In this document: positions 29,338 to 53,360 of the stretch, in pieces
Layout: each line of letters opens with the position of its first letter
Position numbering within the stretch: the first letter of the stretch is position 1
Source: Deroplatys truncata
Taxonomy: Eukaryota > Arthropoda > Insecta > Mantodea > Mantidae
Assembly (NCBI GenBank): GCA_030765065.1
Contig: CM060990.1
Location: 10,601,501 to 10,665,500, forward strand
DNA length: 64,000 nucleotides
Reading direction: 5' to 3'
The notes under the pieces: generated by a model
The model's database searches: none
Told to the model about the DNA's origin: nothing
What the model saw: only the letters and a program-made list of their open reading frames with translations
Position numbers and translations under genes: made by a program

Positions 29338-30509
29338 CTACAGCTAGCCAGGCATGACCTATCACGAAGATGCACACAGATATAAACTCTCCAGGACTTG
29401 GTGTAAGTGAACCAAAATCAAGAAAATTTGGCTACAGCTAGCCAGGCATGATCTATCACGAAGATGCGCAGAGACATCACCTCTCCAGGACTTGGTGTAA
29501 ATGAACCGAAATCAAGGAAATTTGGCTACAGCTAGCCAGGCATGGCCTATCATGAAGATGTACACAGACATCACCTCTCCAGGACTTGGTGTAAATGAAC
29601 CGAAATAAAGAAAATTTGGTTAATGCTAGCAAGGCATGACCTATCACGAACATGCGCAGAGACATCACCTCTCCAGGACTTGGTGTAAATGAACCGAAAT
29701 CAACGAAATTTGGCTACAGCTAGCCAGGCATGACCTATCACGAAGATGCATTGAGACGTCGTCTCTCCAGGTCTTGTAGTATAATTAAACGAAATCAAGG
29801 AAATTTGCGGATAAACCTACTTGACGTAGACTGAAGAGAGACAGAGAGAGACGTCCCTTCCAGGACGTATTGTAAATGAACGAAATCAAAGAAATTTGTG
29901 GGTACAGTTAACCTGGTTTGATGTATCACGAAGATGCATAGAGATATAAACTCTCCAGAACTTTGTATAAATTAACCGAAATCAAGCGAATTTGTGACTA
30001 CAGTTAGCCAGAATTCAGTATCACAATGTGCAACAGAGAGAACCCCTTAACACTGCGGGAGTGAGCCTCATCTGCAATTAACCAGGCTACACGTATCAAG
30101 AAAATATACTGAGGGAGTCCATTACTACTGTATAATAGGAAGGAGCCACATATACTTACTCAGTCCGGACGTATTACAAAGCTGGTTGGAAATAATGATT
30201 TAACACTACCGGAAGTTTTGGGACTGAGCTACATCTACAGTTAGGCAGGCTTGACGTACCACAAAGCTTGTTGGAGATAATAGTTTACAACTGCGATAGT
30301 TTCTGGGAATGAAGCACACCCCCAGGTAGCAAGGCTTGACGTGTCACTGAGCTGGTTGGAGATAATAGTTTACAAATGCGAGAGTTTTGGGGAATGAAGC
30401 ACACCCCCAGCTAGCAAGGCTTGACGTGTCACTAAGCTGGTTCGAAACAATAGTTTACCACTGCGAGAGTTTTGAGAATGACAAACTTCTACAGCTAGCA
30501 AGGCTTGGT
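29338..30509 (+). repeat. Minisatellite, 94-bp then 85-bp units; Polinton target
   Basis: From 29338 units of exactly 94 bp repeat ('ctacagctagccaggcatga', starts at 29338, 29432, 29526), becoming more diverged by ~30000. From ~30120 a related unit of ~85 bp follows ('gctagcaaggcttgacgtgt', 'cactaagctgg', 'gagataatagtttac'). The last unit is cut at 30509 by the palindromic element and resumes at 49522 with 'cttggtgtgtcactaagctgg' type sequence. Confidence 0.9.
30504..30509 (+). other. Target site duplication CTTGGT (left)
   Basis: The 6-bp word before the left terminus recurs directly after the right terminus (49522-49527). Joining the flanks at one copy recovers the minisatellite unit (family: 'gcaaggcttgacgtgtcac'), so this is a clean insertion. 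Confidence 0.85.
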
Positions 30510-30534
30510 AGTAGGTTATATAGGACAGACCGAG

Positions 30535-31812
30535 CGCATTTTTGCGTTTATATGGGAAAGGATAGGGAAAACGAGGGTATATACGGCGGTTCACGGAGGA
30601 AAATGCGTTTATATGGGGAAGATAGGGACTACGAGGTTCGATGCTAGGCTAGATAGAGGTTGAAGGAATGAGGATGTGCTTTATATGAGAGATACGTGGA
30701 ATACGAGGAGAAGTGTTAGACTAGATAGAGTTTGAGATGTGGAATATGCATTTATATGGGAAAGATAGGGAAAACGTGAACAGAGGCTAGGATAGACAGA
30801 TGCTGAAGCAGGGGGAATATGAACATATATACAGGAGAGATAGGGGATACGTGGAGAGGTACTAGACTATTCAGGGTTTGAAGGGTAGAGTATGGCTTTT
30901 TATATGAAGAGACGAGGAAAACGAGGGTATATGCTAGGTTGAGAGAACCTTCAAGGAAGAAAAAATGCGTTTATATGGGAGAGATAGGGAAAACGTGGAC
31001 AGTTCTGAGGTAGAGCAGGGGCTGAAGGAGGGAGAGATATGCTTTATACGACAGAGATAGGGCATACGAGGGGAGGTGCTAGTGTAGACAGAGGTTAAGG
31101 AGTACGGTATACGTTTATATGAGGAATATATGGAAAACGGGGGCAGGTGGTAAGATAGACAGAAGCTGGGCCACTTTTACGTTTATATGGGAAAGGATAG
31201 GGAAAACGAGGGTAGATGCGACAGTTCAAGGAGGAAAATGCGTTTATAGGGGAGAGATAGGGAATACCAGGGCTGATGCTAGGCTAGTCAGATGCTAAAA
31301 GAGGGAGGGATACGCTTTATACGAGAGAGATAGGGAATACGAGGAAAGATGCTATACCAAACAGGACTTGAAGGGCAGAATATGGCGTTTTATATGAGCG
31401 AGATAGCGAACCGAGGAGAGGTATTAGGATAGGAGTTTTGAATAATAGAGTAGGCGTTTATATGCGAGAGAAAGGGAATACAAGGGTCGATGCTAGGTTA
31501 GACGGGGTTGAAGGAGGGAATGCGTCTTATATGAGAGAGGTAGGGGAATATCAGGAGAAGTGCTAGGCTAGACACGAAGGTCTGAATGACAGAGTATGCG
31601 TTTATATGGAGAGACGAGAAAACGAAGGTAGGTGCTAGGTTGAGAGAGTCTTCAAGGAGGAAAATGCATTTATATGAGAGCGGTAGGGCATACGAGGAGA
31701 GGTGCTAGTCTAGACATGGTTTGAGGAGTAGAGTATACGTTTATATGGGAGAAATGTGGAAAACGGGAGAGATACAAGGATAGACAGGGGTTGGAGGAGG
31801 AATGCAGGTTTA
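30535..31812. repeat. Subterminal repeat field, left arm
   Basis: About 17 irregular units of ~70-80 bp carry 'gcgtttatatgggagagata', 'gggaaaacgagg' and 'tgctaggctagacagag'. They begin ~25 bp inside the terminus. In protein-primed linear replicons such regions can hold origin or terminal-protein contacts; that role here is inference. Confidence 0.85.
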
Positions 31813-32035
31813 TACGATAATATAGAGAGTAATTCGATTATAAAACTTTTCTCATCCAGCGTTACAACACTTTTATATACTTATTTTCTAAACCTTACAA
31901 ACTTTATATATGTTAAACAGTAGTGCGCGAGACGGAGAGGGACAAACTGTATATAGGTTTACAGCGAAGTATACGTCCTAACCTATTGCCACCTTGTTTG
32001 CTCTGGATCTTCTCATTGTCTATTCATTCCTAACA

Positions 32036-32252
32036 TAATCACGTAACAAGACGTAACCAACAAACGTAACCACGTAACAAGACGTAACACAACGTAACAT
32101 AACAGCATGACAAGACGTCACACTAAGTAACATAAGCACGTATCCTCGTAACATCACGTGACATCTCGTAACCAGAAACGTCACACGACGTAACAACACG
32201 TACCAACCATGTAACCACGTAACAAAACGTAAGAACAACACGTAACCAACCC
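32036..32252. repeat. 'acgtaac' short-repeat array, left arm
   Basis: Dense irregular repeats of cgtaac/acgtaacaag with ACGT cores, spaced about 7-15 bp. ACGT is self-complementary, so the array is rich in small palindromes. Possible protein-binding array; function unknown. Confidence 0.8.
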
Positions 32253-32434
32253 ATTGCTAAAGCAATCTAAACTAATTCATCCTTCATAACTTAGACAATA
32301 AGTACGAGAGCCTAGCCTAGATTAACCCGACCAATCCCAAACGTTCCTCTCATCATCTATTCTACTCAGTCATCGACTAACCTAATCTGGCTAGCCAAAG
32401 ATAACCTCAACTTTCTTTTAGTGAAATTGCAATG

Positions 32435-32451
32435 TTTTATTCAGGTTTTAT
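32435..32451 (-). terminator. PolyA signals downstream of left polB
   Basis: Two AATAAA words on the minus strand, at 32446-32451 and 32435-32440, about 260 nt after the polB stop. Mirror of 47575-47591. Confidence 0.5.
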
Positions 32452-32707
32452 TATTCGAGAGTTTTAATTGAAAAGTTTACGTCAACATACCTTTACTTTA
32501 GTTCGTTGTAGGTGTCTCTCCCCTTTTTATCTAGGCTTGAGACTAGCACTAGGATTGCTCCTAATGGCAGGGTTACCACCTTCCCTACCATCTTCTTCTT
32601 TCTTCATCGGTCGTCAGCTAGCTGCATATACAGCACACCGATAACCTTCATTTTTTTTTTAAGATTGTAGACTCACGAGAAAATCTTTATCTTTGACTTA
32701 CATTTTT

Positions 32708-35700
32708 TTAAGCACTGTTTGTAATGGCGTAATGTCCATACGCATATGTCGTTATTCCGTCCTCAGCAATAATTCTTTTATCATCAAACGGAGTCAATGC
32801 AATTTTATTCACTTGCACTGTGGCAAGAGCATTCTCCCGAGACAGGATCAGATTCATGGGTGTTCTGATGATTTCTCCGGTTTTAAGACAGTCTGTATAG
32901 CTGTCAAATGAAATGTACAGCTTAATAGCGCTACGCTTAATACCTTTAATCTTTTTTATCATTGAGCCTTGAATATCTAAGGCATACATCTTAGGAAATA
33001 GTCCAACAAAGCGTAGGATGATTTTACCATTAGCCTCATCTTTAAATTTTCCCAGCACCTTCTTGTTTAGAGCTGAATAGCATATGTGGTTGACAGGGTA
33101 ATCAGCTGTATCTAGGTGTTCGAGAAAACGTAGCTTGTCCTGGTACACATCTTCAGTTGTAACACGATGAATGAACGAATCAGTGTCCATATACATAAGC
33201 TTCAGGTTTTCAGCTCCATAGTAAGGCAACAACACGTCGTAATGATAGTTATACGTTAATGTCTTGGAGATATCCAACACACTCATACCGATGTATATAG
33301 GCTTGTTGAACACGATCTGACGAGAAGCCATATGTACAGCAGCTAGATTAGAAGCATATATCGTCCTGTCGATAAACGTTGGCGTTGCAATTAACTTTTC
33401 CAGAGTCTTCTCGTTTGTCACCAACCGTATATCCACACGATTAGGAAGGTTCTCCATTGTTTTTCCAAACATGGCGTTGTTAAACAGGTTGTAGAGATCC
33501 TTCTCAAAATCATTTGCAGCTTGTTGTCGTAGTCTGTTATTAAATTCCACATACGGTTTTAACCACTGTGACTGTCGAAATTGTAGCACACGATGGATTT
33601 TTGTTAGTCGCAGGCCATGACTAAGAACTTGCTTCAAAGTCATGTAATGTACTACATACTTCGTTCGTGATCCAAGGTGAGGAATTAGCTTCTTAGTAGT
33701 CGAGTCCTTTGGTTTCAGACACTCAGGCAGGAATGGTAGATTATTATGCAGATCATGGAGTTCAGCGGGATATTCGATGTCAAGTTCTAATATGTATCCA
33801 TGAGGATCATCTTCTTCTAGTCTTTGTAAGTTTACTTCTTCAGGTGAAACCCACTGAAATCCATCAAAACAAAGGGCGTGCCACATTGCCCACCCACTCG
33901 TATATGATGAATTGGGTTGGTCTCGACGGATCAAACTTGTCCATGTAAGTGTTATTAGCCTCTGCATACCGATGTGAAACTTGGCATCAACCTCCTCTTC
34001 TTCCGGATTCCACCATGAGTAGTTGGTCATAATCTAGCAACAGTTCCAGTTCAATTCCAGTATACAGTAACATGGCGTCCCATGTAAGTCCTGGAGAGGT
34101 GAAATAATGTGCTGGATCAACTTTGTGCGTTTTGAGAGTTTGCTCTCTGAATGTCTCAAAGACATCACCTAGAAGAAGAACATCAGATATTAAGTAGAGG
34201 TCACTGTATTCTCCCAGGTTTCTCACATTGAACAGTCTCCATACATTTCTAGCATGTTCGTAGTCAGCATCACTAATTTCTTCTTCATTCAGTTTATTGT
34301 GGAAGTAGTTCTTAGGAGGCAGGCAGGTCTCGTTCAAGACGTCCCATGAAGTGACGTAATCATAGGAAAATACACCCTTACGTGTCATCAACTTCATCTT
34401 GTCTTCTCCGAAGTACTTCAATGTTTCAGGGTATGATGTTAGATTTTTTACCAGCTTATCCAAGCTTGTACTCAGGAACCGAAAACTATCTACAAACCGG
34501 AGCTTTATATCTCCGACATACTTGGAGAATGATATATAGCTTTCTTCAGAGCTAGGAATTACTTCCACCCGCTCACTTGTACATTCCAGCTCCTTAACAA
34601 TGAAGTGTGAGTCATATCCACTGAGGTTGTGCATGAAGACAGGGATATATTTAGGTGTTTTGCGGGCTAAATTACATTCATTATGCAGACTTCCTCGATA
34701 TTCTCCATTGATGTGATCATGGTCGCGTACTTTATAGTTCTCTTCAGTAAAGGTTCTTCCACACAAGTAGCATACTGTAGAGGCGTTGAAATCCATCTGC
34801 TGTTCATATGTAAGTTTCAGGGGCATGACAGATTTGTATATATTATTAATCTTCTTTGCAAGGAATGACAGGTATTCCATAAACTTCTGAGCAGCATCAA
34901 CACCACGATATACATAGGGATGCTTAGGAAGGCCAGTTTTCAGCTGTTCAACGTTGGTTGATCGTTTAACGTAAACACAGAAGCTCATTGCTGTGTGCTC
35001 TTGATAAGGGGTTGTATAGGAAGTTTCAGGACTGGGTATGCATGTATGACATGGAGCGAGAATGCTTTCAAAGTCTGCGTAGATGACGTAAGGTAGTTTC
35101 AACATCCTTTCAAAATTTTTAAACTGTACAATTGATTTCTCCTTTGTAGGCATATCTACCCTTGCATCACCATGCTGATTACAGATGGATGCATGTTGTT
35201 GCAGTTTTTCGAGTCCACTTCGTCCATATCGATTGTCAAAATGTGTAAAGCACCGCTTACAAGTATATATAACTCCATCATGCTTAGTTTTCTGACGTTG
35301 AACGAGCTTCTCAAAATTCTTGATATATACATAGTGATGTTTTCCACTACTGTCACTCAATAGCAGGAGGTCACGACGGTCAGATAGTTCAATCTCAGCA
35401 ACCTTTATCGGATACACTTCATGCTTCTCATCCAGACCGAAGACGTTGATAGACATCCTATTAAGCTTCTCAAATTTAGGTATTTGAGAAAGTGGAGTAG
35501 GATAGAAAACGCAGCTGAAGTCGTACTTATCTTGGAGTTGTTCGTATTTGCTCACACGCTGTGCATCCTTCTCGATGAATTTAGCTAATATAGAGTACAT
35601 GAAACATAGCTCATCAGTTAAATTCTGGATGTTTATACACGCTTCTTTACTTCCAACAGATGACGGTAGGGGTATGTAACTACTTCCCCGTAACGGATTG

Positions 35701-36344
35701 TACTTGTTAATACGAAGTCGAATTCCTTCTACAGCAAGCAGAGCCCAGTTACTACCCTTAAGTTGTGATTCCTCCATTTCAGTAACCAACTTCTTCATTT
35801 TCGTTTCCAGCATAGATTCCAGATCCGTTTCTAAGAAATCAGCTTGATTTCGTGTTTTAAATGTTTTGTCGCAGGTTTCTCCGACACTGTTAAGAAATCT
35901 ACACTCAGCTAACAGATTAATTTTCACACTTTTGTGAATACCAAGCTCTTTATGTACAGCCTGGATTATCCGCTGTTTCGCCTCATGCAGGTACATATTC
36001 AGGTCCTTAGTTGATTCACAACGTATAAAATATGATTTCAAGCGTCCATTGAATGAAGTTTCATATTCTTTCATGTCACAGCCATCCATGATAGAAAATA
36101 TCTCTTGCTTTGTCGGTTCTAATCTACGTTTCTTCTCAGGTCTGTTTATTTCACACACATCTTCGTGTCGGCGACCCTTATAACTGTCTTTGAAGGCTAC
36201 GTTACAATATTTACACTTGAAGAGCTTTTTACAACGTAGCTCATGTCGTCTTTTATCATATCCACAGAGGAACTTCTTACAGCATTTACCACAAGAATAC
36301 CCTGAGGCACTAGGAATGATATCCTTATATGAGGATTTATTCAT
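32708..36344 (-). pseudogene. polB: Protein-primed family B DNA polymerase, left copy
   Basis: The polymerase would copy the element's DNA from a protein primer. It reads as two overlapping frames: 36344-33987 (785 residues) and 34030-32708. N-terminal Cys/His fingers lie at residues ~18-64. A treble-clef-like CxxC...HxH...HNEC region is at ~525-557. Exonuclease motifs are YADFES (Exo I, D424/E426), HNLSGYDS (Exo II) and YLISD (Exo III). Motif B (NNAMFGKTMEN) and motif C (YMDTDSF) are in the second frame. The catalytic motif A region (family DxNNLYG) is lost at ~33893-33899 by a deletion of about 14-17 nt, which also shifts the frame. TTA to TGA at 33987-33989 is private to this copy. The start ATG follows two TATA promoters. 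Confidence 0.92.
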
Positions 36345-36360
36345 TTTTCTTCTTGATATA

Positions 36361-36728
36361 ATAAGGTATTAACCTTTCTTCAAGGAAATGTACGCCTCTT
36401 TACCTTGATAACGCTTTAGAAGGTTGATTATTTTCTGAGAGAACAGCGATGTTAACACCTCAGAGATGATCAACAGAATGAATTTCAATGCTAGAGGTCG
36501 CTCTATTTATAGAGGAAGCACGAACCTTTTGCGATCAATTATATAACGTATTAACCCTTCTTCAAGGAAATGTTAGCCTATTTACCTTCATAACACTTTA
36601 GAAGGTCGCTTATTTTCTAGGAGATCAACGATCTGGTCACCTCGGAGATGATTAACAGAATGAAGTTCAATACCCAAGCTCGCTCTATTTATAGAGGAAG
36701 CACGAACCTTTTTGGATCAATTATATCC
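36361..36728 (-). promoter_or_regulatory. Twin polB promoters, left arm
   Basis: Two tandem ~182-bp repeats, each with a TATA box in the plus-strand form 'ctctatttatagagg' (TATAAATA on minus at 36504-36511 and 36686-36693). The hexamer-flanked box sits in a small palindrome (CCTCTATAAATAGAG). The proximal box is 160-167 nt upstream of the polB ATG. Confidence 0.75.
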
Positions 36729-36999
36729 TGATAATTAATACTAAAAACGGTGATGAAACGTGTAAGCTCTTATATTACAATTCGCGTTACACTGATGTTC
36801 GAGCGTCTCCGTATAACTTCGTATACTTAGAGAAAGTGTACAGTATTGTGAAGATGTATGTATTGTTCGGGTATAATCGTACAGATTCGGAGAGCTTGAC
36901 TCGTGAAGGTGATGAACGATCCGTTGACCGAGCAAGAGGCAAGCATTCCCTCTGCACAACGAAACCTAGAAGCACAAAGATGCAAATGAAAGGAAATCG
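36729..36999. other. Inter-module sequence of left arm
   Basis: Unique sequence between the twin promoters and the SINE-derived array; no gene. Mirrored at 43027-43297. Confidence 0.5.
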
Positions 37000-38335
37000 A
37001 GATAGCATGCGGTGCTCAAGCATTCGCCTGCAGACCAGGGAAAACCACGAAAAATATGTCAGAGTGAGCGTCCATCGGGACTCGAACCAGGGACTCTAGA
37101 AGTACACGTGAAAGATATAAATGAAAAAGATTTAAAGGGAAAGGAAAACGGAATCGACGAGAAACCACCCAGACATTCACCTGCAGACCAAGGCAAACCA
37201 TAAAAAATCTGGTGTCAGAGTGAACAACCAACGGAAATCGAACTCCTGAACCCTAAAAGCACACGTAAAAGACACAAATTATATAGAATGCAAGGAAATC
37301 GCGATAGATGGGAAACCGCCCAGACATTCACCCGCAGATCAGGGAAAATCCTGAAAAATCTGATGTCAGAGTGAACAACCAACGGGAATCGAACAAAGGA
37401 ACCTAGAAGCACATGTTAAAGATGCAAATCAAATCAAATAAAATAAAATCGTGATAGATGAGAAACCACCCAGACATTCGCCTACAGACCAGGGAAAATC
37501 ACGAAAAATATGGCAGAGTGAACAACCAACGCTAATCGAACGAGGGAAACCATCAGATTACACATGTGAAAGATGTAAATCAAATAAAATGAAAGAAAAT
37601 CGTGATAGACGGGAAACCACTCAGGCATTCGCCTGCAGACCAGGGAAAACCATGAAAAATCCCAGGATAGAGTGAGCGACCGACAGGGAAATCAAACAAA
37701 GGACTCTAGAAGCACAAATATACAAATGAAAGAAAATCGTGATAGATGGGAAACCACTCAGGCATTCGCCTGTAGACCAGGGAAAACCATGAAAAATATG
37801 TCAGAGTGAGCGACCGACGGGGAAATCAAACAAAGGACCCTAGAAGCACATGCGAAAGATGTAAATCAAATAAAATGAAAGAAAATAGAAATCGATGAGA
37901 AACCACTCAGGCATTCGCCCACAGACCGGGGAAATTGAGAAAAATCTAATGTCGGAGTGAACATCCAACGGCAATCGAACCAGGGAGATCTTCAGATTGT
38001 ACAGTGAAAGATGTAAATTATATAGAATGAAAGGAAATCGCGATAGATGAAAACCCACTCAGGCATTCGCCTGCAGACGAGGGAAAACCATGAAAAATCT
38101 GAGGTCAGAGTGAACAGCCGATGGTAATCGAACTAGGGAGATCATCGGATTATAACGTGAAATATGTAAATGAAAGGGAAATAAATCGTGATAGATGAGA
38201 AACCATCCAGACATTCGTAGTCAAATCAGCGAAAACTGCGAGAAACTAAGGTCAGAGTGACCGTCCCTACGGAAATCGACCCTACGACCTCGAATGCAAA
38301 TTACTGACGTTATCGACTGAACCAGACCGTAAAAA
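37000..38335 (-). repeat. Tandem array of SINE-derived units, left arm
   Basis: About nine units of ~140-155 bp. Each has 'cattcgcctgcagaccaggg', 'aaaaccatgaaaaat', 'tcagagtgaacaaccaacgg' and 'aatcgaac..aggga' elements. The minus strand shows a pol III B-box core (GTTCGATTCC-like) per unit. Only the last unit (38205-38335) keeps a tRNA-like A-box head (TGGTTCAGTCGATAACG on minus). The unit matches free SINE copies at 29165-29290 and 62440-62590. This indicates a SINE that inserted into the element and whose body was then tandemly amplified. Confidence 0.8.
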
Positions 38336-39706
38336 CAGGTTTATTCCATACGACTCATAACAGGATGTAGAGCCAGATGACGTCATACCTGTAGACAGAC
38401 TGTAGGGGGGTCAGTCGACATGCTGAAACGCGCGTGAGCGTTCTTCAGTTAATGTTTCATTCAATGCCTAGCATACCAACACTGCAATCCATTTCACAGC
38501 AAAGTTAATTTTTATTACAATACTTTCTCTCCTTATTTAATTAAATTCATGTATATACCCTATTATTTCATGTTTTCAGTACTTTCTTTCCCTAGTACCT
38601 CTCATTCACCCTAAAGAATCAGTATACAATATGACATTTTTATACGCTTAATGTCCATTTATCATAGAAAACCACGCTTAAAATACTTTCTTTACATCTC
38701 ACCCTCATTCACCCTAAGGAATCAATACACAATGACATTTTTATACGCTTAATGTCCATTTATCTCAGAATACTACGCTTAATTCGCAGTTATCACAGAA
38801 AACCGCTACATTTACTATAATTACGAGCAAACTAATTTTTTCCCAAAGTTACACGGATTTTAAACTCGTAGAATCGTATTAGAAAATGTATCATATTTTA
38901 TCAGTTCAAAGCGGGTAAACATTTTTAAAGTCATCGATTACATTTAGCGTAAAGATTATCATGTATCATTTATAAAGCCGTCTTGTTAAATATAATGTAT
39001 CGCAATCCATTTTTAAAATCAAATCATACATACGTTTAATACATAAAATGGATGTCTTCATATACCCAATATGGCTGCCATGCACGTTAAACCCATCAAT
39101 ATGGAGCGTCTGGCATCTTCGTCATTGAACGCGCTTCCGACTCTCTCCGCTAGATGGAGCGCATGATGCATGCTACGAGGATGGAGAGGGAGAAACCAGC
39201 TCTAATTAGGTTGCAGTAGAGAGGGAGCGTCAGTCGGCCTGAGAGCCTCGTTCAGGGAGGTCGTATAGTTCTCACATTCATTTTAATACGCGTCGTCGTA
39301 TCGCGTGTTCGTTACGTAACTTTTTTTTACCATTCTTAGTCATGCATTCATCCAAGAGATGTAATTTCGTCAGGACGACAGTACTCAAATATGCATTACA
39401 AAATAAACGTTTATTCGATGCCTTTATCTTAATTGCTTTTTGATGTTATTCGAAGATGAATTTATACTCATGTCACGCGATTCAGCCCAAGACCAACAGG
39501 TCAATTTGGAACAGCAGTCAATGACGCATCATATTCTAAAGATATAGACACCCTTTACTGCAAATCGCTATCTCTTTCCATTCAGGAGATATAAGCATTT
39601 AACGGTAATAATACATTTTTTTGCGACGCACCGCCAATTAAAGTGGTCTGTAATCGAAATAATTACCCCACAGTATATATAACATAGCGACTTGGAGCTT
39701 CAAAGC
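38336..39706. other. AT-rich inner part of left arm
   Basis: Non-coding. Contains a ~100-bp direct repeat in two copies (about 38600-38690 and 38700-38790; 'tttatacgcttaatgtccat'). No ORF of interest. Mirrored at 40320-41690. Confidence 0.6.
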
Positions 39707-39726
39707 CGATGCCGACAACTGATAAG

Positions 39727-40298
39727 TTCCTTTCTTCTAAGCAGTCGACTCCCACCCCCGCTTCGTGCTATTCCGACACCGCCATTTACGATGAGAACAA
39801 TATTGCATTGTGCTGCGTCTCTGATTTGCGGTGAAAGAATAGCACAGAAGAGGAAAGGCGTGAAAACACTTAACCTTTGTGGTTTCACCCTTAAAAGCTA
39901 CTGGACCACGATCCCCCTCCTCTCTGCTCTACTCCATCGCTGGCTTAAGCGATGAGAACAATAGCCTATTGTTCTCCAATACCGAGGCCAGCATTAGGTC
40001 ATGCCCCAAAGAGGGGGAGTGATCACGCCCCCTCCGCAGAGAGCCTGACAGTAGAGCACAAAGAGAGGGCGTGCCCAGTGTACGGGATAGGATTAGAAAG
40101 GAGAGGGGAGGGGTGTGCTCACCTGTGCAAGGGAGAGGTCACAAAGGAAGGAGAGGGGGCAGGGTGGCCACCGGCACGCGACCGTGCGGCATTAGGCGAG
40201 ACCACAAAGGGAGGGGGCGGGACCAGGCGGCACACGACAGGACGGCATGTGAGGCCTCAAAGGGAGGGGGCGGGACCAGGCGGCATAGAATAAAGGAT
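39727..40298. other. Spacer at palindrome centre, GC-rich and hairpin-rich
   Basis: Not shared between arms. It holds a perfect hairpin GAGAACAATAG-C-CTATTGTTCTC (39954-39976), a 7-bp stem at ~39933-39954 (CATCGCT/AGCGATG) and a 24-nt near-palindrome around TGATCA at 40011-40034, close to the exact symmetry centre (~40012.5). Its right half has G-rich imperfect repeats ('gggagggggcgggaccaggc', at ~40209 and ~40263). Frames here have gene-like length only because of composition. Confidence 0.8.
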
Positions 40299-40319
40299 CT
40301 TATCAGTTGTCGGCATCGC

Positions 40320-41690
40320 CTTTGTGCGCTTGAAGGAATACAATATACCTACTGTGGGGTAATTAATTCGATTACAGACCACTTTAATTGGCGGTGCGTC
40401 GCAAAAAAATGTATTATTACCGTTAAATGCTTATATCTCCTGAATGGAAAGAGATAGCGATTTGCAGTAAAGGGTGTCTATATCTTTAGAATATGATGCG
40501 TCATTGACTGCTGTTCCAAATTGACCTGTTGGTCTTGGGCTGAATCGCGTGACATGAGTATAAATTCATCTTCGAATAACATCAAAAAGCAATTAAGATA
40601 AAGGCATCGAATAAACGTCTATTTTGTAATGCATATTTGAGTACTGTCGTCCTGACGAAATTACATCTCTTGGATGAATGCATGACTAAGAATGGTAAAA
40701 AAAAAGTTACGTAACGAACACGCGATACGACGACGCGTATTAAAATGAATGTGAGAACTATACGACCTCCCTGAACGAGGCTCTCAGGCCGACTGACGCT
40801 CCCTCTCTACTGCAACCTAATTAGAGCTGGTTTCTCCCTCTCCATCCTCGTAGCATGCATCATGCGCTCCATCTAGCGGAGAGAGTCGGAAGCGCGTTCA
40901 ATGACGAAGATGCCAGACGCTCCATATTGATGGGTTTAACGTGCATGGCAGCCATATTGGGTATATGAAGACATCCATTTTATGTATTAAACGTATGTAT
41001 GATTTGATTTTAAAAATGGATTGCGATACATTATATTTAACAAGACGGCTTTATAAATGATACATGATAATTTTTACGCTAAATGTAATCGATGACTTTA
41101 AAAATGTTTACCCGCTTTGAACTGATAAAATATGATACATTTTCTAATACGATTCTACGAGTTTAAAATCCGTGTAACTCTGGGAAAAAATTAGTTTGCT
41201 CGTAATTATAGTAAATGTAGCGGTTTTCTGTGATAACTGCGAATTAAGCGTGGTATTCTGTGATAAATGGACATTAAGCGTATAAAAATGTCATTGTGTA
41301 TTCATTCCTTAGGGTGAATGAGGATGAGATGTAAAGAAAGTATTTTAAGCGTGGTTTTCTATGATAAATGGACATTAAGCGTATAAAAATGTCATATTGT
41401 ATACTGATTCTTTAGGGTGAATGAGAGGTACTAGGGAAAGAAAGTACTGAAAACATGAAATAATAGGGTATATACATGAATTTAATTAAATAAGGAGAGA
41501 AAGTATTGTAATAAAAATTAACTTTGCTGTGAAATGGATTGCAGTGTTGGTATGCTAGGCATTGAATGAAACATTAACTGAAGAACGCTCACGCGCGTTT
41601 CAGCATGTCGACTGACCCCCCTACAGTCTGTCTACAGGTATGACGTCATCTGGCTCGGCATCCTATTATGAGTCGTATGGAATAAACCTG
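40320..41690. other. AT-rich inner part of right arm
   Basis: Inverted copy of 38336-39706; non-coding. Confidence 0.6.
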
Positions 41691-43026
41691 TTTTTACGGT
41701 CTGGTTCAGTCGATAACGTCAGTAATTTGCATTCGAGGTCGTAGGGTCGATTTCCGTAGGGACGGTCACTCTGACCTTAGTTTCTCGCAGTTTTCGCTGA
41801 TCTGGCTACGAATGTCTGGGTGGTTTCTCATCTATCACGATTTATTTCCCTTTCATTTACATATTTCACGTTATAATCCGATGATCTCCCTGGTTCGATT
41901 ACCATCGGCTGTTCACTCTGACCTCAGATTTTTCATGGTTTTCCCTGGTCTGCAGGCGAATGCCTGAGTGGGTTTTCATCTATCGCGATTTCCTTTCATT
42001 CTATATAATTTACATCTTTCACTGTACAATCTGAAGATCTCCCTGGTTCGATTGCCGTTGGATGTTCACTCCGACATTAGATTTTTCTCGATTTCCCCGG
42101 TCTGTGGGCGAATGCCTGAGTGGTTTCTCATCGATTTCTATTTTCTTTCATTTTATTTGATTTACATCTTTCGCATGTGCTTCTAGGGTCCTTTGTTTGA
42201 TTTCCCCGTCGGTCGCTCACTATGACATATTTTTCATGGTTTTCCCTGGTCTACAGGCGAATGCCTGAGTGGTTTCCCATCTATCACGATTTTCTTTCAT
42301 TTGTATATTTGTGCTTCTAGAGTCCTTTGTTTGATTTCCCTGTCGGTCGCTCACTCTATCCTGGGATTTTTCATGGTTTTCCCTGGTCTGCAGGCGAATG
42401 CCTGAGTGGTTTCCCGTCTATCACGATTTTCTTTCATTTTATTTGATTTACATCTTTCACATGTGTAATCTGATGGTTTCCCTCGTTCGATTAGCGTTGG
42501 TTGTTCACTCTGCCATATTTTTCGTGATTTTCCCTGGTCTGTAGGCGAATGTCTGGGTGGTTTCTCATCTATCACGATTTTATTTTATTTGATTTGATTT
42601 GCATCTTTAACATGTGCTTCTAGGGTCCTTTGTTCGATTCCCGTTGGTTGTTCCCTCTGACATCAGATTTTTCACGATTTTCCCTGGTCTGCGTGTGAAT
42701 GTCTGGGCGGTTTCCCATCTATCGCGATTTCCTTGCATTCTATATAATTTGTGTCTTTTACGTGTGCTTTTAGGGTTTAGGAGTTCGATTTCCGTTGGTT
42801 GTTCACTCTGACACCAGATTTTTTATGGTTTGCCTTGGTTTGCAGATGAATGTCTGGGTGGTTTCTCGTCGATTCCGTTTTCCTTTCCCTTTAAATCTTT
42901 TTCATTTATATCTTTCACGTGTACTTCTAGAGTCCCTGGTTCGAGTCCCGATGGACGCTCACTCTGACATATTTTTCGTGGTTTTCCCTGGTCTGCAGGC
43001 GAATGCTTGAGCACCGCATGCTATCT
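41691..43026 (+). repeat. Tandem array of SINE-derived units, right arm
   Basis: Mirror of the left array; the tRNA-like head ('ggttcagtcgataacg') is at ~41703 and units run toward 43026 on the plus strand, each with 'ttcgattnccgttgg'-type B-box sequence. Confidence 0.8.
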
Positions 43027-43297
43027 CGATTTCCTTTCATTTGCATCTTTGTGCTTCTAGGTTTCGTTGTGCAGAGGGAATGCTTGCCTCTTGCTCGGTC
43101 AACGGATCGTTCATCACCTTCACGAGTCAAGCTCTCCGAATCTGTACGATTATACCCGAACAATACATACATCTTCACAATACTGTACACTTTCTCTAAG
43201 TATACGAAGTTATACGGAGACGCTCGAACATCAGTGTAACGCGAATTGTAATATAAGAGCTTACACGTTTCATCACCGTTTTTAGTATTAATTATCA

Positions 43298-43665
43298 GGA
43301 TATAATTGATCCAAAAAGGTTCGTGCTTCCTCTATAAATAGAGCGAGCTTGGGTATTGAACTTCATTCTGTTAATCATCTCCGAGGTGACCAGATCGTTG
43401 ATCTCCTAGAAAATAAGCGACCTTCTAAAGTGTTATGAAGGTAAATAGGCTAACATTTCCTTGAAGAAGGGTTAATACGTTATATAATTGATCGCAAAAG
43501 GTTCGTGCTTCCTCTATAAATAGAGCGACCTCTAGCATTGAAATTCATTCTGTTGATCATCTCTGAGGTGTTAACATCGCTGTTCTCTCAGAAAATAATC
43601 AACCTTCTAAAGCGTTATCAAGGTAAAGAGGCGTACATTTCCTTGAAGAAAGGTTAATACCTTAT
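43298..43665 (+). promoter_or_regulatory. Twin polB promoters, right arm
   Basis: TATAAATA at 43333-43340 and 43515-43522 inside two ~182-bp direct repeats; the proximal box is 167 nt before the ATG at 43682. Confidence 0.75.
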
Positions 43666-43681
43666 TATATCAAGAAGAAAA

Positions 43682-46600
43682 ATGAATAAATCCTCATATA
43701 AGGATATCATTCCTAGTGCCTCAGGGTATTCTTGTGGTAAATGCTGTAAGAAGTTCCTCTGTGGATATGATAAAAGACGACATGAGCTACGTTGTAAAAA
43801 GCTCTTCAAGTGTAAATATTGTAACGTAGCCTTCAAAGACAGTTATAAGGGTCGCCGACACGAAGATGTGTGTGAAATAAACAGACCTGAGAAGAAACGT
43901 AGATTAGAACCGACAAAGCAAGAGATATTTTCTATCATGGATGGCTGTGACATGAAAGAATATGAAACTTCATTCAATGGACGCTTGAAATCATATTTTA
44001 TACGTTGTGAATCAACTAAGGACCTGAATATGTACCTGCATGAGGCGAAACAGCGGATAATCCAGGCTGTACATAAAGAGCTTGGTATTCACAAAAGTGT
44101 GAAAATTAATCTGTTAGCTGAGTGTAGATTTCTTAACAGTGTCGGAGAAACCTGCGACAAAACATTTAAAACACGAAATCAAGCTGATTTCTTAGAAACG
44201 GATCTGGAATCTATGCTGGAAACGAAAATGAAGAAGTTGGTTACTGAAATGGAGGAATCACAACTTAAGGGTAGTAACTGGGCTCTGCTTGCTGTAGAAG
44301 GAATTCGACTTCGTATTAACAAGTACAATCCGTTACGGGGAAGTAGTTACATACCCCTACCGCCATCTGTTGGAAGTAAAGAAGCGTGTATAAACATCCA
44401 GAATTTAACTGATGAGCTATGTTTCATGTACTCTATATTAGCTAAATTCATCGAGAAGGATGCACAGCGTGTGAGCAAATACGAACAACTCCAAGATAAG
44501 TACGACTTCAGCTGCGTTTTCTATCCTACTCCACTTTCTCAAATACCTAAATTTGAGAAGCTTAATAGGATGTCTATCAACGTCTTCGGTCTGGATGAGA
44601 AGCATGAAGTGTATCCGATAAAGGTTGCTGAGATTGAACTATCTGACCGTCGTGACCTCCTGCTATTGAGTGACAGTAGTGGAAAACATCACTATGTATA
44701 TATCAAGAATTTTGAGAAGCTCGTTCGACGTCAGAAAACTAAGCATGATGGGGTTATATATACCTGTAAGCGGTGCTTTACACATTTTGACAATCGATAT
44801 GGACGAAGTGGACTCGAAAAACTGCAAGAACATGCATCCATCTGTAATCAGCATGGTGTTGCAACGGTAGTTATGCCTACAAAGGAGAAATCAATTGTAC
44901 AGTTTAAAAATTTTGAAAGGATGTTGAAACTACCTTACGTCATCTACGCAGACTTTGAAAGCATTCTCTCTCCATGTCATACATGCATACCCAGTCCTGA
45001 AACTTCCTATACAACCCCTTATCAAGAGCACACAGCAATGAGCTTCTGTGTTTACGTTAAACCATCAACCAACGTTGAACATCTGAAAACTGGCCTTCCT
45101 AAGCATCCCTATGTATATCGTGGTGTTGATGCTGCTCAGAAGTTTATGGAATACCTGTCATTCCTTGCAAAGGAGATTAATAATATATACAAATCTGTCA
45201 TGCCCCTGAAACTTACATATCAACAGCAGATGGATTACAACGCCTCTACAGTATGCTACTTGTGTGGAAAAACCTTTACTGAAGAGAACTATAAAGTACG
45301 CGACCATGATCACATCAGTGGTGAATATCGAGGAAGTCTGCATAATGAATGTAATTTAGCCTGCAAAACACCTAAATATATCCTTGTCTTCATGCACAAC
45401 CTCAGTGGATATGACTCATACTTCATTGTTAAGGAGCTGGGATGTACAAGTGAGCGGGTGGAAGTAATTCCTAGCTCTGAAGATAGCTATATATCATTCT
45501 CCAAGTATGTCGGAGATATAAAGCTCCGGTTTGTAGATAGTTTTCGGTTCCTGAGTACAAGCTTGGATAAGCTGGTAAAAAATCTAACATCATACCCTGA
45601 AACATTGAAGTACTTCGGAGAAGACAAGATGAAGTTGATGACACGTAATGGTGTATTTCCCTGTGATTACGTCACTTCATGGGACGTCTTGAACGAGACC
45701 TGCCTGCCTCCTAAGAACTACTTCCACAATAAACTGAATGAAGAAGAAATTATTGATGCTGACTACGAACATGCTAGAAATGTATGGAGACTGTTCAATG
45801 TGAGAAACCTGGGAGAATACAGTGACCTCTACTTAATATCTGATGTTCTTCTTCTAGGTGATGTCTTTGAGACATTCAGAGAGCAAACTCTCAAAACGCA
45901 CAAAGTTGATCCAGCACATTATTTTACCTCTCCAGGACTTACATGGGACGCCATGTTACTGTATACTGGAATTGAACTGGAACTGTTGCAAGATTATGAC
46001 CAACTACTCATGGTGGAATCCGGAAGAAGAGGAGGTTTATGCCAAGTTTCACATCGGTATGCAGAGGCTAATAACACTTACATGGACAAGTTTGATCCGT
46101 CGAGACCAACCCAATTCATCATATACGAGTGGGTGGGCCATGTGGCACGCCCTTTGTTTTGATGGATTTCAGTGGGTTTCACCTGAAGAAGTAAACTTAC
46201 AAAGACTAGAAGAAGATGATCCTCATGGATACATATTAGAACTTGACATCGAGTATCCCGCTGAACTCCATGATCTGCATAATAATCTACCATTCCTGCC
46301 TGAGTGTCTGAAACCAAAGGACTCGACTACTAAGAAGCTAATTCCTCACCTTGGATCACGAACGAAGTATGTAGTACATTACATGACTTTGAAGCAAGTT
46401 CTTAGTCATGGCCTGCGACTAACAAATATCCATCGTGTGCTACAATTTCGACAGTCACAGTGGTTAAAACCGTATGTGGAATTTAATAACAGACTACGAA
46501 AACAAGCTGCAAACGATTTTGAGAAGGATCTCTACAACCTGTTTAACAACGCCATGTTTGGAAAAACAATGGAGAACCTTCCTAATCGTGAGGATATACG

Positions 46601-47318
46601 GTTGGTGACAAACGAGAAGACTCTGGAAAAGTTAATTGCAACGCCAACGTTTATCGACAGGACGATATATGCTTCTAATCTAGCTGCTGTACATATGGCC
46701 TCTCGTCAGATCGTGTTCAACAAGCCTATATACATCGGTATGAGTGTGTTGGATATCTCCAAGACATTAACGTATAACTATCATTACGACGTGTTGTTGC
46801 CTTATTATGGAGCTGAAAACCTGAAGCTTATGTATATGGACACTGATTCGTTCATTCATCGCGTTACAACTGAAGATGTGTACCAGGACAAGCTACGTTT
46901 TCTCGAACACCTAGTTACAGCTGATTACCCTGTCAACCACATATGCTATTCAGCTCTAAACAAGAAGGTGCTGGGAAAATTTAAAGATGAGGCTAATGGT
47001 AAAATCATCCTACGCTTTGTTGGACTATGTCCTAAGATGTATGCCTTAGATATTCAAGGCTCAATGATAAAATAGATTAAAGGTATAAAACGTAGCGCTA
47101 TTAAGCTGTACATTTCATTTGACAGCTATACAGACTGTCTTAAAACCGGAGAAATCATCAGAACACCCATGAATCTGATCCTGTCTCGGGAGCATGCTCT
47201 TGCCACAGTGCAAGTGAATAAAATTGCATTGACTCCGTTTGATGATAAAAGAATTATTGCTGAGGACGGAATAACGACATATGCGTATGGACATTACGCC
47301 ATTACAAACAGTGCTTAA
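43682..47318 (+). pseudogene. polB: Protein-primed family B DNA polymerase, right copy
   Basis: Same gene as the left copy, transcribed outward on the plus strand. Frame one runs 43682-46162 (826 residues). It continues past the site of the left copy's stop through RGGLCQVSHRYAEANNTYM, a conserved family segment, to QFIIY at 46124-46126. Only 7 nt then separate it from WAMWHAL in the second frame, so motif A is missing, exactly as in the left copy. Frame two carries motif B (FGKTMEN) and motif C (MDTDSF). A private TAG at 47073-47075 interrupts it; the remaining codons continue in frame to TAA at 47316-47318. The total span of 3637 nt is one short of a codon multiple by the amount the deletion explains. 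It is inactive. Confidence 0.92.
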
Positions 47319-47574
47319 AAGAATGTAAGTCAAAGATAAAGATTTTCTCGTGAGTCTACAATCTTAAAAAAAAAAATGAAGGTTATCCGTGTGCTGTATA
47401 TGCAGCTAGCTGACGACCGATGAAGAAAGAAGAAGATGGTAGGGAAGGTGGTAACCCTGCCATTAGGAGCAATCCTAGTGCTAGTCTCAAGCCTAGATAA
47501 AAAGGGGAGAGACACCTACAACGAACTAAAGTAAAGGTATGTTGACGTAAACTTTTCAATTAAAACTCTCGAAT

Positions 47575-47591
47575 AATAAAACCTGAATAAA
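47575..47591 (+). terminator. PolyA signals downstream of right polB
   Basis: AATAAA at 47575-47580 and 47586-47591, about 260 nt after the polB stop. Confidence 0.5.
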
Positions 47592-47774
47592 ACATTGCAA
47601 TTTCACTAAAAGAAAGTTGAGGTTATCTTTGGCTAACCAGATTAGGTTAGTCGATGACTGAGTAGAATAGATGATGAGAGGAACTTTTGGGATTGGTCGG
47701 GTTAATCTAGGCTAGGCTCTCGTACTTATTGTCTAAGTTATGAAGGATGAATTAGTTTAGATTGCCTTAGCAAT

Positions 47775-47991
47775 GGGTTGGTTACGTGTTGTTCTTACGT
47801 TTTGTTACGTGGTTACATGGTTGGTACGTGTTGTTACGTCGTGTGACGTTTCTGGTTACGAGATGTCACGTGATGTTACGAGGATACGTGCTTATGTTAC
47901 TTAGTGTGGCGTCTTGTCATGCTGTTATGTTACGTTGTGTTACGTCTTGTTACGTGGTTACGTTTGTTGGTTACGTCTTGTTACGTGATTA
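47775..47991. repeat. 'gttacgt' short-repeat array, right arm
   Basis: Inverted copy of 32036-32252. Confidence 0.8.
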
Positions 47992-48213
47992 TGTTAGGAA
48001 TGAATAGACAATGAGAAGATCCAGAGCAAACAAGGTGGCAATAGGTTAGGACGTATACTTCGCTGTAAACCTATATACAGTTTGTCCCTCTCCGTCTCGC
48101 GCACTACTGTTTAACATATATAAAGTTTGTAAGGTTTAGAAAATAAGTATATAAAAGTGTTGTAACGCTGGATGAGAAAAGTTTTATAATCGAATTACTC
48201 TCTATATTACCGT

Positions 48214-49496
48214 ATAAACCTGCATTCCTCCTCCTTCAACCCCTGTCTATCCTTGTATCTCTCCCGTTTTCCACATTTCTCCCATATAAACGTATACTCT
48301 ACTCCTCAAACCATGTCTAGACTAGCACCTCTCCTCGTATGCCCTACCGCTCTCATATAAATGCATTTTCCTCCTTGAAGACTCTCTCAACCTAGCACTT
48401 ACCTTCGTTTTCTCGTCTCTCCATATAAACGCATACTCTGTCATTCAGACCTTCGTGTCTAGCCTAGCACTTCTCCTGATATTCCCCTACCTCTCTCATA
48501 TAAGACGCATTCCCTCCTTCAACCCCGTCTAACCTAGCATCGACCCTTGTATTCCCTAACTCTCGCATATAAACGCCTACTCTATTATTCAAAACTCCTA
48601 TCCTAATACCTCTCCTCGGTTCGCTATCTCGCTCATATAAAACGCCATATTCTACCCTTCAAGTCCTGTTTAGTATACCATCTTTCCTTGTATTCCCTAT
48701 CTCTCTCGTATAAAGCGTATCCCTCCCTCCTTTAGCATCTGACTAGCCTAGCATCGCCCCTGGTATTCCCTATCTCTCCCCTATAAACGCATTTTCCTCC
48801 TTGAACTGTCGCATCTACCCTCGTTTTCCCTATCCTTTCCCATATAAACGTAAAAGTGGCCCAGCTTCTGTCTATCTTACCACCTGCCCCCGTTTTCCAT
48901 ATATTCCTCATATAAACGTATACCGTACTCCTTAACCTCTGTCTACACTAGCACCTCCCCTCGTATGCCATATCTCTGTCGTATAAAGCATATCTCTCCC
49001 TCCTTCAGCCCCTGCTCTACCTCAGAACTCTCCACGTTTTCCCTATCTCTCCCATATAAACGCATTTTTTCCTCCTTGAAGGTTCTCTCAACCTAGCATA
49101 TACCCTCGTTTTCCTCGTCTCTTCATATAAAAAGCCATACTCTACCCTTCAAACCCTGAATAGTCTAGTACCTCTCCACGTATCCCCTATCTCTCCTGTA
49201 TATATGTTCATATTCCCCCCTGCTTCAGCATCTGTCTGTCCTAGCCTCTGTTCACGTTTTCCCTATCTTTCCCATATAAATGCATATTCCACATCTCAAA
49301 CTCTATCTAGTCTAACACTTCTCCTCGTATTCCACGTATCTCTCATATAAAGCACATCCTCATTCCTTCAACCTCTATCTAGCCTAGCATCGAACCTCGT
49401 AGTCCCTATCTTCCCCATATAAACGCATTTTCCTCCGTGAACCGCCGCATATACCCTCGTTTTCCCTATCCTTTCCCATATACACGCAAAAATGCG
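48214..49496. repeat. Subterminal repeat field, right arm
   Basis: Mirror copy of 30535-31812, reading 'tctctcccatataaacgca' on the plus strand. Confidence 0.85.
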
Positions 49497-49521
49497 CTCG
49501 GTCTGTCCTATATAACCTACT

Positions 49522-49527
49522 CTTGGT
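49522..49527 (+). other. Target site duplication CTTGGT (right)
   Basis: Direct copy of 30504-30509, immediately outside the right terminus. Confidence 0.85.
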
Positions 49528-50596: not shown

Positions 50597-50694
50597 CTGC
50601 TACCATTACTACTACCACTACACTACTACTACAACTACACTACTACTACTACCGCCACTACACTGCTACTTCCACTACACTACTAATACCACTA

Positions 50695-50751
<57 letters not shown>

Positions 50752-52194
50752 CGCCACTACACTGCTACTTCCACTACACTACTAATACCACTACACTACT
50801 ACTACCACCACTAAACTACTACCGTTACACTACTACTACCAACCACTACACTACTACTACCAGCACCACTACACTACTACTTCCACTACACTACTACTAC
50901 CAGCACCACTAATCTACTACTACCAGCACCACTACACTACTACTACCAACCACAACACTACTACTGCCACTACACTACTACTACCACCACTAAACTACTA
51001 CTACCAACCACAACACTACTACTACCAACCACAACACTACTACTGCCACTACACTACTACTACCAACCACAACACTACTACTACCAACCACAACACTACT
51101 ACTGCCACTACACTACTACTACCACCACTAAACTACTACTACCACCACTACACTACTACTACCAACCACAACACTACTAATACCACTACACTACTACTAC
51201 CACCACTAAACTACTACCGTTACACTACTACTACCAACCACTACACTACTACTACCAGCACCACTACACTACTACTTCCACTACACTACTACTACCAGCA
51301 CCACTAATCTACTACTACCAGCACCACTACACTACTACTACCAACCACAACACTACTACTGCCACTACACTACTAATACCACTACACTACTACCACCACA
51401 CTACTACTACCACCACTACACTACTACTACCAACCACAACACTACTAATACCACTACACTACTACTACCACCACTAAACTACTACCGTTACACTACTACT
51501 ACCAACCACTACACTACTACTACCAGCACCACTACACTACTACTACCAGCACCACTAATCTACTACTACCAGCACCACTACACTACTACTACCAACCACA
51601 ACACTACTACTGCCACTACACTACTAATACCACTACACTACTACCACCACACTACTACTACCACCACTACACTACTACTACCAACCACTACACTACTACT
51701 ACCACCACTAAACTACTACTGCCAACCACAACACTACTACTGCCACTACCCTACTACTTCCACTACACTACTAATACCACTACACTACTACCACCACACT
51801 ACTACTACCACCACTACACTACTACTACTACCAACCACTACACTACTACAACCACAACTACACTACTACCAACCACTACACTAGTACTACTACCGCCACC
51901 ACACTACTACTACCACCACTACACCACTACCACATCCACCACGACATCTGCGTTACTGCCACTACTACGTTACTAGTATGTTACTACTACCACCACCACC
52001 GCAGCTACTACACTACTACTACTGCTACTACTACCACATCCACCACGACATCTGCACTACTACTACTACTACTACGTTACTAGTATGTTACTACCACCAC
52101 CACCGCTACTACAACACCACTACCACTACTACTACTACTACTACCACTACTACGTTACTGGTATTTTACTACCACCACCACCACTACTACTACA

Positions 52195-52241
<47 letters not shown>

Positions 52242-52781
52242 GCTACCACTGCCACATCCAGCACGACATCTACGTTACCACCACTGCTACGTTTCTAGTA
52301 CGTTACTACCATCACCGCTACTACTATGTTACTACTACTACTACTGCGATCACTACTAGTACGTTTACTACCACCACAATCACCACGACTACTACGCTAC
52401 TACTGCTACCACTACCACTACTACTACTACTACTATTTTGCTACTACTACCACCACTACTAATGCTATTACTACTACTATTACCACTACTACTACGTTAT
52501 TACTACTACTACCACTACCACCACCACTGCTACTATTACTACTGTTACCACTACTACTATTACTACTGCCTACTGCTACTACTACATCACTACTACCACT
52601 ACTATCACCTCTATTATTACTACTAGTACACCTCTTGCGTTACTACTACTATTACTACCACCACCACTACTACTGCATTACTACTAGTACCACTACCATC
52701 ACTACTGCTACCACTACCACCAATACTACTACTACTACCACCAATACTACTACTACTACTACCACCACTACTACTACGTTG

Positions 52782-52818
<37 letters not shown>

Positions 52819-53360
52819 TACTAATGCTATTATTACTACTATTATTACTGCTATTACCACCACTACTACTACGTTACTACTACCACTACCACCACTACTG
52901 CTACGATTACTACTATTACCACTACTACTACTACATTACTACTACCACTACTATTATTACTACTAATACGACTCTTGCGTTACTACTACTACTACTCCTA
53001 CTATTACTACCACTACCACCACCACCACTACTACTGCGTTACTAGTACTACCACTACCATCACTACTGCTGCCACTACCATCACTTCTACTATTACTAGT
53101 ACCACTATTACTACGTTAATACTACCACTACCACCACCACTACTATTGCTACTACCACTACCACCACCGCTACTACATTACTACTTCTGCTACTACCGTC
53201 ACTTCTACTATTACTACTACTGCCACTACCATCACTACCACTACTATTACTACTACCGCCTTTACCACTATTACTACTACCACCACCACTACTACTATTA
53301 ATACTTCTACGACTACCACCACTACCACTACTATTACTACTACATTACTACTACTGCTAC
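50597..53360 (+). repeat. ACT-type trinucleotide repeat, ~2.8 kb
   Basis: Imperfect (CTA)n with ACC and GCC variants. The plus strand is almost free of G. Pure CTA runs occur (for example 50698-50748). Longer blocks are duplicated: the run beginning 'accgttacac' recurs near 50821, 51216 and 51484 followed by the same series of variants. Long frames of Leu, Thr, Tyr, His and Pro in it (such as 52326-53045) are artefacts of the repeat. Confidence 0.95.

Follow-up and report, generated by a model that had tools for sequence, protein, structure and literature searches.

Within a 64,000-nucleotide window of the genome of the mantis Deroplatys truncata (contig CM060990.1, positions 10,601,501 to 10,665,500), we characterized a 19-kb palindrome that carries a DNA polymerase gene of the PolB type (polB) in each arm. 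The weight of the evidence favors viewing it as one member of a palindromic transposon family in which PolB is the sole gene found, and whose members insert whole and likely replicate via a displaced strand that folds on itself. On the best reading, the element is derived from Polintons or adintoviruses, and its polymerase is predicted to be protein-primed. In window coordinates, the element and its insertion site are organized as follows:

30168..30507, plus strand: host tandem array with an 85-bp unit, the insertion site of the element
30504..30509: left target-site duplication CTTGGT, exact, touching the left end
30510-49521: whole palindrome, two inverted arms around an unpaired center
30510..39676, plus strand: left arm, 9167 bp, outer end AGTAGGTTATATAGG
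30510..32700, plus strand: left terminal region of degenerate short tandem repeats, with no open reading frame (ORF) of at least 150 aa outside polB
32720..36344, minus strand: left polB, ~1.2k codons, N-terminus towards the center, interrupted by a frame break near 33.89 kb and by a stop found in this arm alone
37015..38279, plus strand: left inner tandem repeats, unit ~151 bp
39677..39759, plus strand: left inner edge of the center, pairing imperfectly with 40266-40348
39760..40265: unpaired center, 506 nt
40266..40348, minus strand: right inner edge of the center, imperfect partner of 39677-39759
40349..49521, minus strand: right arm, 9173 bp
41841..43012, minus strand: right inner tandem repeats
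43682..47306, plus strand: right polB, with a frame break near 46.13 kb that mirrors the left-arm break
49522..49527: right target-site duplication CTTGGT, exact, touching the right end

The arms are 99.0% identical, with 94 substitutions and a handful of indels separating them along 9167 bp and a length drift of 6 nt, much as an earlier sequence-only reading had described them (two inverted arms of ~9.2 kb, ~6 nt of drift). Its estimate of a ~570-bp spacer was also close: weaker arm pairing reaches inward as far as 39759/40266, leaving 506 nt unpaired. Each arm holds one polB, oriented from the center towards the outer end, and the element contains no other ORF of at least 150 aa, in agreement with the earlier description of a Polinton-type polB present alone and twice.

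The ends of the element record how it arrived. The same sequence, AGTAGGTTATATAGG, opens and closes it, and joining the flanks without the element and with a single CTTGGT restores an array unit with 84% identity over 106 bp to the adjacent unit. The duplication on both sides and the restored unit show that the palindrome entered whole, as one unit, which the sequence-only reading had also proposed; it neither formed in situ in the chromosome nor represents two insertions. When the terminal 251 bp were searched against the host genome (2677 candidates), 40 full or nearly full matches were scored, of which 30 form 15 facing pairs spaced 3.1-22.7 kb apart. Exact 6-bp duplications flank 11 of these 15 pairs and three further pairs agree at 4-5 of 6 positions, as against 0 of 210 matching 6-bp duplications when flanks were combined at random; the ends of three other elements added two exact 6-bp duplications and one of 5 bp. 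Terminal inverted repeats with a 6-bp target duplication, a Polinton trait, are thus present in the family, with 13 of 18 duplications exact, and a 6-bp duplication at integration points to an integrase of the rve type. The shortest same-end pair, L047 (G000:C6:79311700-79314990), spans 3.1 kb with 952-bp inverted ends and a 6-bp duplication and is an internally deleted derivative; five more same-end pairs, of 4.6-10.5 kb, suggest further short derivatives. At another copy (G000:C4:248168444-248183636), each host flank is an inverted version of the other over the 12 bp seen per side, and the palindrome there seems to run beyond the element ends into host DNA.

Searching the 4.29-Gb, 818-contig host genome with PolB yielded 55 scored places from 22,736 first-look candidates, a lower bound. 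Nearly half of these matches (26 of 55) form 13 back-to-back diverging pairs, 2.7-11.9 kb apart, while among PolB matches within 30 kb of each other neither convergent nor same-orientation pairs occur; 24 of the 55 have an open frame of 1217 aa or more, uninterrupted by a stop within the match. We examined 21 centers, comprising the window, the 12 other pairs (with copy E trimmed to 9.95 kb) and 8 from among the 29 single matches, and found 20 to be palindromic around an unpaired middle. Because 13 of these centers had been chosen as pairs, the unbiased test lies in the single matches, which were palindromic in 7 of 8 cases. The exception, s7 (L035), contains a retrotransposon of the non-long-terminal-repeat type, with endonuclease and reverse transcriptase, within its arm (L035:4431-8668), which probably moved any partner arm outside the 10 kb taken; s7 retains both its ends, which lie 16.7 kb from each other and are flanked by a 6-bp duplication. 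Two of three more mid-element pieces likewise have inverted inner arms of the palindromic polB family. The palindrome is therefore the inherited, multiplying form rather than a one-off molecule.

The center itself is shared. The stretch 39700-40330 matches 40 scored places in the host genome (1947 candidates), namely the window and 39 others at 85-92%, and one of them lies midway in an element of 20.6 kb that was recognized by its ends (966277-986871). Other palindromic copies with the same center, which the sequence-only reading had suggested looking for, are numerous. Among the 20 centers compared, which include the window and leave out s7, the window spacer occurs at length in 9 (window included) and partially in 3. 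One center at many places is most simply ancestral and inherited. In six of the eight centers that do not share it (F, G, I, N, s20 and sC13), the middle is lost and unequal lengths are gone from the two arms, which we read as central deletions of the same palindrome; the centers of B and s9 are less clear. On this pattern we reject a new fold-back in each copy with a freely chosen center.

We then considered how alike the two arms of an element are. In the six palindromes with both polB loci, each arm is nearest to its own partner (99.0-99.85%), with the next element at 95-98%. A tree of 19 elements, built from a non-coding piece of at most 1000 bp beside polB (E, cut elsewhere, and s7 left out), placed the two arms as a cherry in all 19, with support of 0.73-1.0 and no value for two identical-arm pairs. 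Judged by raw identity, 16 of the 19 elements have the partner arm as the closest; arms are 96.3-100% alike, and those of s11 and sC13 are identical over 1000 bp. Sister arms in all elements compared imply that, at some stage in the history of each, one arm served as the pattern for the other. Differences between the window arms are patchy, with a 1517-bp stretch lacking any, a length reached in 0 of 20,000 random placements. Copy B (0 of 5000) and copy F (P 0.0024) are likewise patchy, D (0.04) and E (0.028) less so, and C (0.14) is not; this points either to some conversion in the chromosome or to equalization that was incomplete at insertion.

Substitution patterns in polB separate the history between elements from that within them. 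Between arms of the same element, changes fall at codon positions in the ratio 31/27/31, with 27 silent and 56 non-silent, as expected if they reflect neutral decay after insertion. Between elements (15 overlapping pairs) changes concentrate at third positions, the corresponding numbers being 712/492/2102, with 1768 silent and 837 non-silent. At the level of codon counts, purifying selection on PolB is thus shown between elements, with none between the arms of one element, and PolB seems to serve the spread of the family and not to be maintained thereafter. The window copy of polB is itself dead. Both parts of its broken frame are covered in alignments by relatives 1.2-1.3 thousand residues long.

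Among PolB relatives with a named source, the closest belong to true bugs and a planthopper (Halyomorpha, Rhodnius and Nilaparvata). A confident model predicts that the protein folds like the PolB of phi29 and of adintoviruses, and the nearest viral PolB folds, by predicted structure, are those of Alpha adintoviruses and of bidnaviruses with an Alpha-type PolB. Sequence searches were less revealing: PolB had no match in the phage records and no relative in the viral and prokaryote contigs searched, the N-terminal part of the window protein had no match by sequence in the PDB, and a profile of 61 PolB proteins retrieved only weak zinc-finger and Hpy99I rows there. An N-terminal OTU-like domain, a trait of adintovirus PolB, is absent from the matches listed for PolB. 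Pfam places an endonuclease VII-like stretch (PF02945) within the protein, and in this insert (residues ~516-560) CxxC, DH and CN residues are invariant in 61 aligned proteins. T4 endonuclease VII cleaves cruciforms. Such an activity would suit a palindrome, yet many of the listed PolB homologues have the same endonuclease VII domain.

Beyond polB, little gene content was found. Eight of the smaller ORFs of the window element had no Pfam match. Thirty pieces of relatives contained 28 ORFs of at least 150 aa, of which 17 were polB and 11 were not; an integrase domain was found in none of the 10 scanned, by an approach that would miss a spliced gene. Apart from the reverse transcriptase and endonuclease of the s7 retrotransposon, these 10 gave just two weak matches, one to a zinc knuckle and one of the apolipoprotein type. 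In the three additional mid-element pieces mentioned above, the ORFs of at least 120 aa were polB and one of 139 aa, the latter outside the domain search. No genes for the cysteine protease, packaging ATPase or jelly-roll capsid were found in the window ORFs or the 30 pieces. The window element and the same pieces likewise yielded neither the hexon gene and rve integrase of adintoviruses nor the NS1 helicase and parvovirus-type capsid that accompany PolB in bidnaviruses. As for a full Polinton with the same termini, which the sequence-only reading had proposed to seek, a weak search of the host genome turned up no element that combines these ends with an integrase. PF00770 had no match in the host genome, but its control was silent too. 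PF00665 gave 150 scored matches among 12,192 candidates, many in frames of more than 1000 aa that are probably long-terminal-repeat retrotransposons, which makes the search uninformative about a helper integrase.

These observations can be joined in a replication cycle. PolB enzymes of this class prime on a protein at linear ends, as established for phi29 and adenovirus, and in the adenovirus panhandle model much shorter terminal repeats rebuild an origin by pairing. In the cycle that we consider probable, a terminal protein would prime copying at both outer ends, and strand displacement would release a single strand that is self-complementary over 9 kb. This strand would pair arm to arm into a hairpin, rebuilding a double-stranded origin at one open end. 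Mismatch repair within the hairpin, with each arm templating the other, would even out the arms; further arm-to-arm gene conversion in the chromosome may keep them alike, and integration would be carried out by an rve-type integrase supplied in trans. A hairpin state would explain the sister arms together with a free, inherited loop. More tentatively, and at somewhat short of an even chance, the family may constitute a new eukaryotic replicon with PolB alone, in which a 9-kb hairpin strand with a conserved loop has one open end as both origin and integration end, and the two gene copies proof-read each other in every round.

Several observations weigh against this interpretation. Five of the 18 target-site duplications are imperfect or absent, the window spacer was not found in 8 of 20 centers, and the third mid-element piece (L075) lies within one arm, so that the center of that element is off its middle. 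Three of the 19 elements (K, s6 and s20) are closer by raw identity to an arm of another element, and the pair A-B has no silent excess (45 silent, 67 non-silent), perhaps owing to decay of A. The C-terminal part of the window PolB matches PF03175 (DNA_pol_B_2) only below the family cut-off, and the full PolB of an unbroken relative matches PF02945 but, at E 0.1, fails to match PF03175. The material described above yielded neither an extrachromosomal form nor a terminal protein nor an integrase. Finally, the patchy differences indicate that some arm-to-arm conversion in the chromosome probably happens, and such conversion alone, as in the palindromes of sex chromosomes, where it keeps arms alike, could suffice without a hairpin.

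This last point underlies the most serious alternative, in which the palindrome is inherited whole, its arms are evened only by chromosomal conversion after insertion, and protein-primed copying proceeds without a hairpin stage. The patchiness in the window, B and F, weaker in D and E and absent from C, is what it would produce, and defects common to both arms, such as the frame break of A and the stop of C, could be conversions. We nonetheless regard it as unlikely, since the two arms group as sisters in all 19 elements, the identical s11 and sC13 among them, and conversion would have to outpace every round of transposition. Less probable again is that each copy folded anew, the mobile form being one 9-kb arm closed at its inner end by a hairpin with a loop of ~600 bp, and the palindrome its unfolded, integrated double. 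Sister arms and a constant loop would follow, and the loop edges do pair imperfectly, like a hairpin neck; no single-arm insertion with the center at its border was recognized among the 21 centers, however, and the idea overlaps with the favored hairpin cycle, of which it may be another stage.

The sequence-only reading had instead inferred that a deleted linear replicon folded back on itself, and a defective molecule produced just once by strand switching would account for PolB alone and symmetric ends, snap-back genomes of adeno-associated virus (AAV) looking alike according to PMC8235507. As an account of a single molecule this is highly improbable and is ruled out by the family, since the palindrome and its center recur genome-wide and PolB is under selection; as an event in the ancestry of the family, a snap-back origin is plausible. 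The family probably arose once, from an adintovirus- or Polinton-like replicon that was cut down to an end plus polB and copied back on itself. An assembly artefact or two back-to-back insertions can be dismissed as the least probable of all: long inverted arms that match almost perfectly are a recognized hazard of assembly, but the 94 arm substitutions (50 transitions and 44 transversions) are ordinary ones, unlike a read-adapter artefact, and the outer target duplications and the recurrence of this architecture at many places across several contigs rule it out.

No known system that we compared combines these features. Foldback elements (FB, Galileo, Tetris) are transposons with very long inverted repeats, as here, but they are not known to have a polymerase and are cut-and-paste elements, Galileo being of the P-element type. 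No DDE/P-type transposase domain was found in the window element; since FB-type copies without transposase exist, this absence alone is weak evidence against Foldback membership. Polintons (Mavericks) share the protein-primed type of PolB, terminal inverted repeats and 6-bp target duplication. Their inverted repeats reach up to about one kilobase, whereas the window element is almost all inverted repeat with just PolB found. According to passages of PMC6431247, Polintons are typically 15-25 kb with 5-10 ORFs, including integrase, cysteine protease and ATPase, and many have capsid genes; as integrase and virion genes were sought and not found, we do not file the element as a Polinton, even though it would work like one pared down to ends and polymerase. 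Alpha adintoviruses and bidnaviruses, the latter described in part of PMC11071296 as having an Alpha-class adintovirus PolB, have the nearest predicted viral folds, but no hexon, penton, NS1/VP or integrase was found in the window element. AAV snap-back genomes, which are subgenomic forms of a parvovirus not known to have a polymerase of its own, resemble the element in being self-complementary with a single kind of end and a replication gene, but are not an inherited transposon family. As described in sections of PMC8235507, they have one end type and partial rep, are symmetric or have a single-stranded loop, and replicate given Rep and helper functions. Among the titles and opening lines of abstracts listed in a literature search that did not extend to subscription journals, none describes a palindromic Polinton-type family, and excerpts of PMC5182062 and PMC12368964 contain nothing on a palindromic Polinton.

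Other features of the window lie outside the element. A TAC/CTA-rich array of 2.75 kb nearby (50607-53360) has a GC skew down to -0.9 and a 239-aa open frame. Further away are a tandem array with an 81-bp unit in ~22 copies, GC-richer than its surroundings (11185-12978), and a helix-turn-helix fragment of the Tc1/mariner type (19699-20460). A 378-aa ORF (7011-8147) and a 353-aa ORF in an insertion inside copy s9 (L037:2668-3726) each have a weak apolipoprotein-type match below the cut-off, and perhaps belong to one repeat family.

Protein-primed linear replicons are thought to need short inverted ends, and here almost the entire element is inverted end. The multiplication of this palindromic form in one animal genome provides an in-genome record in which to ask whether strands fold back in Polinton-type replication, and suggests that a polymerase gene and ends alone can make a successful mobile element. 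The family also lets one study the tolerance of a genome for many 19-kb palindromes and the way in which a mirror-duplicated gene stays uniform.

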